Positions 1,679-6,518 of a stretch of DNA of 6,634 nucleotides are shown piece by piece; the first letter of the stretch is position 1; the number at the start of each line of letters is the position of its first letter. The notes under the pieces are model-generated. The model saw only the letters and a list, made by a program, of their open reading frames with translations. It searched no databases and was not told the origin of the DNA. The stretch is taken from positions 1 to 6,634 of the forward strand of contig JASEGJ010000032.1 in the NCBI GenBank assembly GCA_030018135.1. Direction: 5' to 3'. Both the position numbers and the translations under genes were made by a program. This DNA comes from Candidatus Hodarchaeaceae archaeon. Its GTDB lineage: Archaea; Hadarchaeota; Hadarchaeia; Hadarchaeales; Hadarchaeaceae.

Positions 1679-4600
1679 GTGGTATTCAGGAGGGCGAAAA
1701 AACCCAAACGCGTTCTAAGGGCTGCGGAGGAAATACCCGAGCTAAAAAAGCCCACCTTGTTTAAGAAAGCCCCCAAGTCAGTTCTTAAACCCGCAGAGGT
1801 AGCGCCTGAGGTGGAAGAGCCGGCTTTAGAAGCCCCCGAGGCCCCCCCACCGGTCGAGGAGGTCGAAGCTCCGAAGCCGATCGAAGAGCCTCCTCCCCCC
1901 AAGATGGAAGAGGCCTCCAAACCGGTCGAAAAGCCCCCTGTCGAAGTAAAGGTTCCCAAACCCGTTGAAAAGCCCAAACCAATTGAGAGACCCGTGGCTA
2001 GGGGAGCCCCGCCTCCCGCTGAAAAATCCATCATAGAAGCCCTCCAGACGGACTCCGCCCTCGAGGAGCTCCAGCAAAGGCTCGAGGCCAGGCAGGAGGT
2101 CGAAGCTCGAAGGGCTGTGAGGGTCAAGAGGCCAGCCATGGTCAGGAGGAGGGTCCCGAAACCGATTGAAAAGCCCCCGGTCGAGAAAATAGCCCCCAAA
2201 CCAGCTAAAAGACTTGGGCTCAAAAAAGTTAAAAAGTTCCCCTCGGTCAGAGGGAAAAAGGTCGGACCGGCTAGAAAGCCCCGAGTCAAAAAAAAGGGAA
2301 AATTCGTCGAAAGGCCCACTTTGGCTGGGGAAAAAAAGGTTAAGGCGGTTAAAAAACTCAAGATCGCGAAAGGGGCTCCCAAGCCGGTCGAAGAGTCGCC
2401 TGTTGAGATAAGGGCCCCCGAACCCGTTGGAAGGCCCAAGCCGGTCGAGAAACCTCCAGTTGAGAGGAGGGCCCACCGGGTCGAGGGGAGGGTCCCAAAG
2501 CCAGTTGAGCACCGCCTTCGGGAGAGGGTCGCAAAACCGATTAAGGGGCTGGTTCCAGCCAAAAGGAGGGTCACGAAGCCGATCCTAAAGGCCGAGGCGG
2601 TGGAGGTCGAGAAGCCCCCACTGGAGGCACTTCAAGCGGATTCCGCCCTCGAGGAGCTCCAGCAAAGGCTCGAGGCCAGGCAGGAGGTCGAGGCCCTAAA
2701 GGCGTTCGAGGAGTACACCACCTTCGAGCCGCCGAAGGGCTACCAGGAGGTGGAGCGCTATTGGATCGCGAAACCCTACGCCTGGGCGGCCATCCTTTTC
2801 GACCCGGAGAAGAACGAGCGCCTGTATTATCTAGTTGAGCCCACCCTGACGCCCTTCGAGAAGACGGTCTTGGAGACGCTCCACGAGCACCTGCTCGACC
2901 GCCTGAGCTACGATGAAACCATGAAGGATCGAGATGTGATCATCAAAAACAAAGCCCTCGAACTCCTCGACGAGTACGGCGTGTCCCTCGATGAAAAATC
3001 CGTCAACAAGGTCCTCTACTACTTGAAGAGGAACTACATCGGCTACGGCAAGATAGATAGCATCCTCAAGGACCCGAGGATAGAGGACATCTCGTGCGAC
3101 GGGGTCGACATACCCATTTTTCTGTATCATCGGGATCACCAAAACATCCGCACGAATCTCGTGTTCAAGGACGCGGAGGAGCTCGACCTCTTCGTCATCA
3201 GGATCGTCGAGCGCGCCGGGAGGCAGATCTCACTGGGGAGGCCGACCGTCGACGCAGCGTTGCCTGAGGGCTACAGGGTGCAGGCGACGATTGGAACCGA
3301 GATAACGACGCGGGGCAGCTCATTCTCGATCAGGAAGTACACCGAGGAGCCATTCACGCCCGTCGACCTCATTTTACACGGCACCTTCTCGCCGGAGATG
3401 CTTGCATACCTCTGGCTGGCGACCGAGAACAAGAAGAACATCATGGTCGTCGGAGGAACTGCTAGCGGAAAATGTGTGGCCGGCGATACCAAGGTCTTGC
3501 TCGCGAATAGCCGTCTGGAAGAGATGAGGAGCCTAGCCGGGGAGGCCTTCAAGAGGGGGCAGGTGATGGAAACCGAAGATGGATGGTTCGTGACCGACAC
3601 TGATCTCAAGGTCTTCTCGATGGGCCCGGATTTGAAAATTGCTCCCGTAAAAGTATCCAAGGTCTGGAAGCGCAGGGCCCCGGATTTTCTCTACAAGGTG
3701 CGGACCCGTAGCGGAAAGGAGATCACCGTCACCCCTGAACATCCATTCTTCACGATGGATGGCGGTGTGGTCGAAAGAAGGGCAGATGAGCTCGAAGTGG
3801 GGATGAAAATAGCCACCGCCGAAATAGCTTCCGGTGATCGGGGACCCTGTCTGGCGTCCCCTGAGGTTTTTTGGGATGAAATCGCAAACGTCAAGAGGAT
3901 AAAGCCGACCGACCCTTGGGTTTATGATTTAACGGTGGACTCCACCCACAATTTCGTTGCGAATGGCATAATAGCTCACAATACTTGCACCCTTAACGCC
4001 CTCTCGCTCTTCATCCCGCCCGACGCGAAGATCGTCTCGATAGAGGACACCAGGGAGCTCACGTTCTACCAGGACAACTGGCTCGCGAGCGTCACCCGCG
4101 ACGCCCGCGGCGAGCGGGCGATAGACATGTACGACCTCCTGCGCCAGGCGCTAAGGCAGAGGCCAGAAGTTCTGATCGTGGGCGAGGTGCGGGGCAAGGA
4201 GGCCCTCACGCTATTTCAGGCCATGAGCACCGGCCACTCCTGCTACTCCACCGCGCACGCTGGCTCCATACAGGAGATGGTGCACAGGCTCGAGGGCGAG
4301 CCGATAAACGTGCCGCATCACATGCTCACCGCGCTCGACATCGTGTGCCTCCAGCTCCTCACCTACCACAGGGATAAGAGGGTCCGCCGCAACCAGACCA
4401 TCGTCGAGGTGCTCGGCGTCGACCCCCTCAGCGGAGCCCTCAGGACGAACCGGATATTCGACAGAAACCCGATAACCGATCAGTTCGAAAGGATCGGGAA
4501 TTCGCAGGTCCTCCTCGAGATCGCGAGGGAGCGCGGCTGGAGCGCCATAGAGCTGGAGAGGGAGCTCAAAAACCGGCGGAGGGTGCTAGAGTACCTCGCG

Positions 4601-4693
4601 AAAAACAACATGAGGCGCATCGGGGAGGTGTCGGCGATCATACGGCAGTACTATTTCGATCCCGCGAAGGTGATGGAGCAAATAAAATCGTGA
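1679..4693 (+). CDS. tadA: Archaeal type II/IV secretion ATPase (KlbA/TadA/FlaI family) with Pro/Lys/Glu-rich tail and P-loop mini-intein
   Basis: This is the cytoplasmic hexameric ATPase that powers assembly of a type IV filament or secretion system together with a TadC/FlaJ membrane partner. Residues 1 to about 339 form a low-complexity Pro/Lys/Glu tail with repeats. Residues ~346-585 are the N-terminal domain, with DPRIEDI at 465-471 and RPTVDAALPEGYR at 521-533. The RecA-like motor follows: Walker A G592-G593-T-A-S-G597-K598, split by an intein (599-768) and completed by T769; Asp box SIEDTREL (787-794); Walker B VLIVGEV (831-837) with catalytic E836; and His box STGHSCYSTAHA (850-861). 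Removing the intein leaves 834 residues, still long for the family because of the tail. GTG 1679 is preceded by GGGGGG. The TadC gene follows after 16 bases. The family assignment is secure; whether the system is a pilus, a DNA-transfer or a secretion machine is not. The tadA symbol is by family, since KlbA would serve equally. Confidence 0.95.
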   Translation: MVFRRAKKPKRVLRAAEEIPELKKPTLFKKAPKSVLKPAEVAPEVEEPALEAPEAPPPVEEVEAPKPIEEPPPPKMEEASKPVEKPPVEVKVPKPVEKPKPIERPVARGAPPPAEKSIIEALQTDSALEELQQRLEARQEVEARRAVRVKRPAMVRRRVPKPIEKPPVEKIAPKPAKRLGLKKVKKFPSVRGKKVGPARKPRVKKKGKFVERPTLAGEKKVKAVKKLKIAKGAPKPVEESPVEIRAPEPVGRPKPVEKPPVERRAHRVEGRVPKPVEHRLRERVAKPIKGLVPAKRRVTKPILKAEAVEVEKPPLEALQADSALEELQQRLEARQEVEALKAFEEYTTFEPPKGYQEVERYWIAKPYAWAAILFDPEKNERLYYLVEPTLTPFEKTVLETLHEHLLDRLSYDETMKDRDVIIKNKALELLDEYGVSLDEKSVNKVLYYLKRNYIGYGKIDSILKDPRIEDISCDGVDIPIFLYHRDHQNIRTNLVFKDAEELDLFVIRIVERAGRQISLGRPTVDAALPEGYRVQATIGTEITTRGSSFSIRKYTEEPFTPVDLILHGTFSPEMLAYLWLATENKKNIMVVGGTASGKCVAGDTKVLLANSRLEEMRSLAGEAFKRGQVMETEDGWFVTDTDLKVFSMGPDLKIAPVKVSKVWKRRAPDFLYKVRTRSGKEITVTPEHPFFTMDGGVVERRADELEVGMKIATAEIASGDRGPCLASPEVFWDEIANVKRIKPTDPWVYDLTVDSTHNFVANGIIAHNTCTLNALSLFIPPDAKIVSIEDTRELTFYQDNWLASVTRDARGERAIDMYDLLRQALRQRPEVLIVGEVRGKEALTLFQAMSTGHSCYSTAHAGSIQEMVHRLEGEPINVPHHMLTALDIVCLQLLTYHRDKRVRRNQTIVEVLGVDPLSGALRTNRIFDRNPITDQFERIGNSQVLLEIARERGWSAIELERELKNRRRVLEYLAKNNMRRIGEVSAIIRQYYFDPAKVMEQIKS
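2054..2103 (+). repeat. 50-bp exact direct repeat, copy 1
   Basis: These 50 bases are identical to 2642-2691 and lie 588 bp (196 codons) upstream of it in the same reading frame. The encoded segment (residues 120-143, ending DSALEELQQRLEARQEVEA) matches residues 316-339 at 23 of 24 positions, with T124 versus A320. The heptad-like spacing of leucines suggests an amphipathic or coiled-coil helix. Nucleotide identity over 50 bases points to recent duplication or gene conversion. Confidence 0.95.
2642..2691 (+). repeat. 50-bp exact direct repeat, copy 2
   Basis: This is the second copy of the segment at 2054-2103. It sits directly before the folded N-terminal domain of the ATPase, so it is probably the original linker helix and copy 1 its duplicate. 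Recombination between the copies would delete 196 residues of the basic tail in frame. Confidence 0.95.
3473..3982 (+). mobile_element. 170-residue mini-intein inserted in the Walker A motif of the secretion ATPase
   Basis: The insert encodes residues 599-768 of the precursor. It begins with the nucleophile Cys1 (CVAGDTKVLL, block A), has block B GKEITVTPEHPFF with the T87-x-x-H90 pair, block F VYDLTVDSTHNFVANG, and block G IIAHN with penultimate His169 and terminal Asn170, followed by Thr+1 in the host. Excision between K598 and T769 restores GGTASGKT, a perfect P-loop. No LAGLIDADG or other endonuclease motif is present and there is no room for one, so it is a splicing-only class 1 mini-intein unable to home by itself. 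The length and the region before block B recall the 168-residue Methanocaldococcus KlbA intein, which starts with Ala rather than Cys (from memory). Cys126 of the intein and Cys+2 of the host could in principle pair with Cys1. G+C looks lower than in the flanking motor. Confidence 0.95.
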
Positions 4694-4709: not shown

Positions 4710-6518
4710 TTGGTCAGGAGGTTGGCAATTCGTTTATTCGGGCGGTGGACGCAAAAGCGGAAATACGATGGGTTGAGGGAAAGGCTGGGCCGGGCGCGGA
4801 TGATGGTCTCGGCGGACGCGTATGTGTCCGTGGCCATCTTTTATTCGATCGTCGTGTCTGCTACGGTGGCGATTTCTGGCAGCTTAGTCCTTTGGCTCGT
4901 GCATTTTTTTACGCTGCCCATGCTTGCATCGATCTTCCTCGTAGCAATCATCTCGGGTTTTTTGACGTACCGCCTGTTTCTATTTTACCCATCGCTGGCC
5001 GCAAATGAGAGGGCCCATAAAATAGACCTCGCGCTCCCCCACACGGTCAGCTTCATGCATGCCCTGAGCCGGAGCGGCGCCACGGTGACGGATATCCTGA
5101 AGGAGTTCAGCGCGCGCCCCGACATGGGCGAACTAGCTGAAGAAGCAAGCATATTCATGCGCGATGTGGAGTTCCTCGGCCAAGACCCGCTGACCGCGCT
5201 CCGCAACCTATCGCGGTCGACGGTTTCGAAGAGATTCAAGACCTTCCTAGAGACCCTGACCTCCATCATCGAAACGGGCGGCGATATGACGGGCTACTTC
5301 GCCAGCAAGTGCTCGGAGTACCAGACCGAGGTGAGGGACGAGCAGAAGAAGTTCATAGAGACGCTCGGGCTATTGGCCGAGATCTACGTCATCATGCTCG
5401 TGTTCGCGCCGCTGTTGATATTGCTCCTGCTCGTCACCTTGGGCGCGATGGGGGGGATTCCGGTAGCGCTTCTTTTTTTGGTAGCCTACGTGGCGATTCC
5501 GCTCGGCTCGGCCATATTCATGGTGTTGGTCAAAATAATTTCCGGTGGCGGGCTCAAGATAAAGCTTGGCAAGGGCAAGCCGCCGGAGGCCTTTAAGGGC
5601 GTGTCGGTGCGCGGCGAGGCGGTCAAGAAGGAGATGCTCGGGGGCATCGCTAGAGGCATAACGAGGACGAGGCTGAAGGCCGCGATCTTGCACCCCTTCA
5701 AGACGGTCTCCGAGAACCCCCACTACGCATTTTTCGTCAGCGTGCCAGCCGCGGTGATTTTTTCGATCATACTTAGTCCATTCAGCACCACAACCGCATT
5801 TTTTGCCACGCTGATAATCCTCGCTCCCTACGTCATCGCCTACGAATCCAAGTCGAGGAGGGTCGGAAGGATGGAGGGCGCGCTGCTGGGCTTTCTGAGG
5901 TCGTTGACCAGCGGGGTTAAATCCGGCTTGACGCTGCCCCGGGCGATGGCGGTGGCGTCGACCTCCGACCTGGGTCCGCTGGGCAAGGAGGTCAGGAGGA
6001 TGGGGGCCGACATCAGGTGGGGGATGTCAGCCGCGGAGGCGCTGGCGAGGTTTGAAGCTCGAGTGAAGGACTCGGGTACAGTTTCGTGGGTGGCGACGTT
6101 GATCAGGAAGGCGAACGAGGCGGAGTCCGACATATCCGATGTGCTCGAGGTGCTCATGGACGATGTGGCGACCACGCGATCGCTCCAGAGGGAGCGGAGG
6201 GCGGCGATGGCGACGTATCAGGTCATCATATTCCTGGTCTTCTTCGTGTTCCTCTTCACGGTTTACATGGTGGTAAAGAACATCGTGCTCATGGCCGCGC
6301 CGGTCGCTGGCGGGATGGAGATGCTACTGTTCGGAGGCATCGACCCCCGCCTTTGCTCGACGGTATTCATGCACGCCACGATTCTCGAGGGCCTCTTCGC
6401 CGGGCTGGTGGGCACGCAGATGGGCGAGGGGGACCTGAGGTCCGGCCTAAAGTACTCGCTTTTGATGATGGTCGCGGCTTACGCCGTGTTCGCCGTGCTC
6501 ATCTTCCCAGCGATTTAG
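4710..6518 (+). CDS. tadC: TadC/FlaJ-type type IV filament platform membrane protein with two T2SSF domains
   Basis: This 602-residue polytopic protein is the inner-membrane platform on which the neighbouring ATPase acts during filament assembly. A cytoplasmic, basic N-terminus (residues 1-40) leads to membrane helices at about 41-64 and 69-93 and a cytoplasmic T2SSF domain (~100-218, starting LPHTVSFMHALSRSGATVTD). Helices at ~219-247 and ~250-277 close the first half. The second half repeats the plan: membrane segments within ~337-378, a T2SSF domain (~388-500), a helix at ~503-531, and C-terminal helices containing ILEGLFAGLVGTQMGEG, typical of archaeal FlaJ/TadC. The doubled domain in one chain matches the archaeal family length. 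TTG 4710 is chosen because the charged N-terminus belongs to the family pattern and a stop lies just upstream; the alternatives, ATG 4800 and 4803, would remove it. The gene begins 16 bases after the ATPase stop, implying co-transcription. The gene name is by family. Confidence 0.93.
   Translation: MVRRLAIRLFGRWTQKRKYDGLRERLGRARMMVSADAYVSVAIFYSIVVSATVAISGSLVLWLVHFFTLPMLASIFLVAIISGFLTYRLFLFYPSLAANERAHKIDLALPHTVSFMHALSRSGATVTDILKEFSARPDMGELAEEASIFMRDVEFLGQDPLTALRNLSRSTVSKRFKTFLETLTSIIETGGDMTGYFASKCSEYQTEVRDEQKKFIETLGLLAEIYVIMLVFAPLLILLLLVTLGAMGGIPVALLFLVAYVAIPLGSAIFMVLVKIISGGGLKIKLGKGKPPEAFKGVSVRGEAVKKEMLGGIARGITRTRLKAAILHPFKTVSENPHYAFFVSVPAAVIFSIILSPFSTTTAFFATLIILAPYVIAYESKSRRVGRMEGALLGFLRSLTSGVKSGLTLPRAMAVASTSDLGPLGKEVRRMGADIRWGMSAAEALARFEARVKDSGTVSWVATLIRKANEAESDISDVLEVLMDDVATTRSLQRERRAAMATYQVIIFLVFFVFLFTVYMVVKNIVLMAAPVAGGMEMLLFGGIDPRLCSTVFMHATILEGLFAGLVGTQMGEGDLRSGLKYSLLMMVAAYAVFAVLIFPAI

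Follow-up and report, generated by a model that had tools for sequence, protein, structure and literature searches.

At this locus the Walker A motif of a filament-assembly ATPase is interrupted by 170 codons, which raises the questions of what the inserted segment is, where it came from and what it means for the motor that carries it. The window, that is, the whole stretch of 6,634 nucleotides analysed, belongs to contig JASEGJ010000032.1 of a Candidatus Hodarchaeaceae archaeon. Comparison genomes, contigs and loci are designated below by G, C and L numbers. The interrupted gene is made up as follows.

1679 to 4693, + strand: open reading frame of the precursor, a type IV filament assembly ATPase (T2SSE/PilB3-like by Pfam and NCBIfam), GTG start, 1004 aa including the intein.
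1679 to 2713, + strand: Pro/Lys/Glu-rich N-terminal extension, residues 1 to 345, read from the translation; also found, in diverged form, at the sister locus L023 (41% identity).
2714 to 3472, + strand: conserved part of the N-extein, residues 346 to 598; 86% identical to G005, 69 to 74% to G012, G009 and G023.
3452 to 3472, + strand: N-terminal half of Walker A, GGTASGK, aligned with the uninterrupted GGTASGKT of the orthologues.
3473 to 3982, + strand: class 1 mini-intein, C1...HN, placed by Pfam, NCBIfam and solved-structure matches and by homologues at the same site.
3473 to 3475, + strand: Cys1, the N-terminal splicing nucleophile, invariant in the same-site alignment.
3731 to 3742, + strand: block B, TPEH, with T87 and H90.
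3821 to 3862, + strand: 14-residue linker EIASGDRGPCLASP, which holds Cys126; delimited against full-length same-site inteins and PhoCDC21-1.
3917 to 3982, + strand: blocks F and G, WVYDLTVDSTHNFVANGIIAHN, with H159, H169 and N170; matched by TIGR01443, at most 66% identical to the C-terminal parts of same-site inteins.
3983 to 4690, + strand: C-extein, residues 769 to 1004, starting with Thr+1, which is the Walker A Thr; 90% identical to G005, T2SSE.

The nature of the host was established from the exteins and the neighbouring gene. Pfam returned T2SSE (5.1e-28, its best stretch starting at residue 769) and PilB3_C (2.4e-9), and NCBIfam gave FlaI/BasE/TadA-type matches. The next gene downstream (4710 to 6518) encodes a T2SSF/TadC-type membrane protein (Pfam T2SSF, 8.4e-31); at L023 the gene order is the same, and it is followed by ORFs whose N-termini are prepilin-like, as judged by eye. 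Its T2SSE domain and the adjacent TadC/PilC-type membrane protein identify the host as the motor of an archaeal type IV filament. At 1e-20 its own genome has no other match of the kind; a profile search there also brought up, on contig C16, a more remote TadA-like paralogue whose P-loop (GSRGAGKTSLL) is uninterrupted and, on contig C4, a PIN-domain ATPase. Within the N-terminal extension, the segment DSALEELQQRLEARQEVEA is present twice (residues 125 to 143 and 321 to 339). Upstream, between a PHP gene and the ATPase, positions 1320 to 1646 encode a predicted membrane protein of 108 aa with no convincing family match; tblastn found no match to it in L023.

The 170 residues lie in frame between Lys598 and Thr769 of the host (GGTASGK/T), and the frame is open across them, with no internal stop anywhere in the ORF. 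At the junctions, codon 598 is AAA (Lys), followed by TGT for Cys1, and AAT for Asn170 (3980 to 3982) is followed by ACT for Thr769, the +1 residue (3983 to 3985). Three profiles recognise the insert: PF14890 Intein_splicing in Pfam (3.6e-25), and in NCBIfam intein_Nterm TIGR01445 (4.1e-21), whose match begins exactly at residue 1, and intein_Cterm TIGR01443 (1.3e-9), whose match stops at residue 170. The class 1 set is complete, with Cys1, T87-x-x-H90 (TPEH), the block F histidine H159 (THNF), H169-N170 and Thr+1; Cys1, T87, E89 and H90 are invariant in the alignment of same-site inteins. Cys1 and Cys126 are its two cysteines. A LAGLIDADG or other endonuclease domain was looked for in the insert and none was found, the linker EIASGDRGPCLASP standing at its place. 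The best solved relative is the Pyrococcus horikoshii PhoCDC21-1 mini-intein (6rpq, 1.6e-33, over residues 4 to 170), followed by PabCDC21-1 of P. abyssi (6rpp, 1.9e-30). A scan of viral contigs with the intein found no relative, and an Rfam scan of the window no match. The AlphaFold models were of unusably low quality, with a pLDDT of 31 for the intein alone and of about 25 across the intein in a 659-residue precursor whose ATPase core was also poor.

Orthologues without the insert were then compared with the window. The nearest relative found, L023 on contig CAKZTQ010000004.1, is about 88% identical around the site and its loop is uninterrupted (GGTASGKTCTLN); contig C4 of G005, a genome of another genus in the same family, has the same sequence at the insertion site. 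These two share 86% (N-extein) and 90% (C-extein) identity with the window. When the intein is removed from the window ORF, the result is GGTASGKTCTLNAL, exactly the sequence of the L023/G005 orthologue. Four further orthologues (G012, G009, G023 and G006) also lack the insert, so that its exact absence was observed in five. One could still take the 170 residues for a part of the ATPase fold, or for a dead insertion that does not splice. The orthologue alignment contradicts the first, the segment being exactly what the orthologues lack, and the intact splicing residues and open frame speak against the second; we give almost no credence to either. Profiles and orthologues agree far beyond chance and, on this evidence, positions 3473 to 3982 are a mini-intein without endonuclease, lodged in Walker A. 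The preliminary description had proposed as much: a full set of splicing residues exactly between K598 and T769, no homing endonuclease, and a filament-assembly ATPase split in its Walker A motif. Host and lack of an endonuclease were borne out, and codons and profile ends show the coordinates and residues to be correct to the base.

Could occupied alleles of the same site be found elsewhere? A query spanning the intein-extein junction was searched in 394 archaeal genomes, and inteins ending at the same Lys/Thr site were found in six more distant ones (G230, G231, G049, G281, G224 and G229). Read out in full, they are 526 to 696 aa long and have clean C1...HN/T junctions; a LAGLIDADG-like motif is present in six of six, and their endonuclease regions are related to one another. 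Two of the hosts (G224 and G229) appear, from the residues flanking the junction, which resemble those of the C16 paralogue, to belong to a paralogous ATPase subfamily. The full-length inteins share with the window copy the site, Cys1 and the HN/T end, and over the N-terminal splicing part the five that were aligned are 38 to 41% identical to it. They differ from it by their endonuclease domain, which in the 170-aa window copy is replaced by the 14-residue linker. A same-site relative at an intermediate stage, tracing the loss of the endonuclease, was not found among these genomes. The window intein is most plausibly an allele of the archaeal filament-ATPase Lys/Thr intein that has lost its homing endonuclease.

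The host superfamily is known to carry another intein, that of KlbA in Methanocaldococcus jannaschii (MJ0781, PDB 2jmz/2jnq), and since the window host belongs to the same secretion/filament ATPase superfamily, its intein might be an allele of the KlbA one. The preliminary description had already set the Cys1/Thr+1 pairing apart from the Ala1/Cys+1 arrangement of Methanocaldococcus KlbA. This difference is real, and it goes with a different site: KlbA-type inteins, which we found in G025, G023, G054, G109, G181 and others, lie in the TGH region, about 85 residues downstream of the Lys/Thr junction, after NTGHDG or NTGHNG. They start with Ala and, wherever the end was read, finish with SN before Cys. 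Among solved structures, the M. jannaschii KlbA intein matches the window intein more weakly (1.8e-7), and an intein tree places the KlbA-type inteins apart from it. Site, first residue and +1 residue all contradict a KlbA allele, which can hardly be the right identification.

Other P-loop mini-inteins are closer in kind. PabCDC21-1 and PhoCDC21-1 (PMC6801210) are likewise mini-inteins in a P-loop, without endonuclease and of similar size (164 to 168 aa), but their host is the MCM helicase and the loop at their former endonuclease site is about 7 residues shorter than that of the window intein. An assignment to the CDC21-1/MCM-a allele was rejected, the window host being T2SSE/PilB3-like and not MCM. 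RadA of Pyrococcus horikoshii and of Thermococcus sibiricus also has a mini-intein in its ATPase P-loop (PMC5790916); these two inteins differ from the window copy by their host, by a weaker match (1.1e-10) and by conditional splicing that has been measured. Insertion between the P-loop Lys and Thr has precedents in VMA-b (between Lys240 and Thr241; PMC2814812) and in TerL1-a, which was called a classic P-loop insertion (PMC5050341). With Thr769 serving as +1 residue between the two halves of Walker A, the window intein is a further instance of an element of known kind, placed at the classic P-loop site. Archaeal NTPases with a mini-intein inside the P-loop thereby come to include a type IV filament motor.

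The mechanism of class 1 splicing, here by means of Cys1 and Thr+1, is established, and its course in this protein can be predicted. After translation, Cys1 would attack the Lys598-Cys1 bond; the chain would be transferred to the side chain of Thr769; Asn170 would cyclise; and a bond between Lys598 and Thr769 would re-form GGTASGKT. The Mg ligand of Walker A and the splicing nucleophile are one and the same Thr, so that the precursor, before splicing, has no P-loop; productive ATP binding is not expected of it, and the motor would be active only once splicing has taken place. We infer, on good grounds, that splicing would act as an obligatory activation step for ATP binding. Comparable situations have been described: the P-loop intein of P. 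horikoshii RadA disrupts the ATPase function, and in DnaB the splicing residue is the P-loop Ser (PMC6195587). Overall, it is very probable that the segment is a class 1 mini-intein which came in as, or goes back to, a homing intein of full length at the P-loop Lys/Thr site, that its endonuclease has since been lost, and that splicing restores GGTASGKT.

We then considered whether the inteins of this site are tied to the filament ATPases or to the P-loop itself. With a profile built from the P-loop inteins of filament ATPases, we searched the same 394 archaeal genomes and read about 100 junctions. The best 36 distinct matches, which include the members of the profile, are all P-loop insertions, while MCM-b, MCM-c and KlbA-site inteins rank later; the sample is ranked by similarity to P-loop inteins and is hence no unbiased census. 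Named from their flanking motifs only, the hosts among these 36 comprise filament ATPases, MCM, SMC-like, SRP-GTPase-like, AAA and EF-2-like proteins, and others. By sequence, the window intein is nearest to P-loop inteins of unrelated NTPases. On the tree, which was built from a short alignment, the P-loop label requires 4 changes, compared to 25 with labels shuffled. The likeness among P-loop inteins may in part stem from adaptation to flanking residues that they share. The filament-ATPase intein of G049 groups with SRP-GTPase inteins at 98/89. Constrained tests did not reject a single clade for any of the competing groupings, whether the filament-ATPase inteins (p = 0.07 and 0.18), all P-loop inteins (p = 0.14) or all MCM inteins (p = 0.10). 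We propose, tentatively and with somewhat more doubt than assurance, that archaea harbour an intein lineage tied to the junction between Gly-Lys and Thr or Ser, and not to a single host gene. This lineage would have spread across unrelated NTPases (filament ATPases, MCM, SMC, SRP-like GTPases, EF-2 and others), and the window copy would be a member without endonuclease. Such a pattern, P-loop inteins that are related while their hosts are not, opens the way to a direct test of how inteins pass from one host to another.

The codons around the insertion bear on the age of the intein. The relevant feature is the following.

3452 to 3994, + strand: tract of low-GC3 codons, from -7 to +4 on both sides of the insertion, with the intein inside the span; delimited by GC3 and synonymous differences.

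At 3/11, the GC3 of these 11 codons is the minimum among 479 extein windows; that of the intein is 0.64, compared to 0.84 for the exteins (Fisher p = 1e-7). At residues identical between the window and G005, 9 of 14 codons differ near the insertion, against 34% elsewhere in the conserved exteins (p about 0.02); this last difference is modest and was sought once the codons had been seen. Taken together, the tract and the GC3 of the intein resemble what homing would leave, an intein taken up from a donor with lower GC and flanks co-converted along with it, although the signal is short and its detection preceded its testing. Alternatively, the intein may be ancestral to the family, its relatives having lost it precisely while the window genome kept it. 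The same-site inteins of other archaeal lineages do indicate that inteins have long had access to this position; on the other side, five orthologues of the same family or order are empty, and the lowered GC3 of intein and flanking codons does not fit a long residence. We consider an ancestral intein very unlikely. Acquisition would instead be fairly recent, as both the empty loops of the nearest relatives and the codon tract suggest, and long-term retention then needs no explanation. The locus offers a set for evolutionary comparison, composed of an occupied allele without endonuclease, close orthologues that lack the insert, and same-site inteins of full length.

A different reason for the presence of the intein would be that its splicing is conditional, on temperature, on redox state (through Cys1 and Cys126 or the extein Cys at +2) or on a partner, and that it is kept because it times the activity of the motor. 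Such behaviour is documented for related elements: in Pyrococcus and Thermococcus, the P-loop mini-inteins of RadA require warming in order to splice within their native exteins (PMC5790916), and the DnaB P-loop mini-intein is under redox control (PMC6195587). The window intein has just two cysteines, C1 and C126, and the C-extein has a Cys at +2. This latter Cys, however, is also present in the intein-free orthologue, and is therefore no adaptation to splicing; close intein-bearing relatives that could show conservation of C126 were not found; and the empty alleles of the nearest relatives suggest a recent gain. A role as a switch, which the preliminary description raised for temperature and redox, finds no support in the present results and appears unlikely, if less so than an ancestral origin. 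If splicing did prove conditional, a formerly selfish element would control pilus assembly post-translationally.

Other inteins were encountered in the course of this work. L086 (G025, contig C11, 2175 to 2738) is a second natural mini-intein, of about 189 aa; its host is a filament ATPase, in which it occupies the TGH site of KlbA and starts with Ala1. Two filament-type ATPase ORFs, of 1966 aa (L080, G229 contig C1) and 2026 aa (L087, G023 contig C1), contain about two and about three inteins, respectively, at different sites. The window genome itself (1.1 Mb) has at least five more intein-bearing genes, on contigs C4, C5, C11, C17 and C45 (L095 to L099); from their flanking residues, the hosts of these five look like an inositol-phosphate synthase, a Hel308-like helicase, RtcB, a CDC48-like AAA protein and an RFC subunit.
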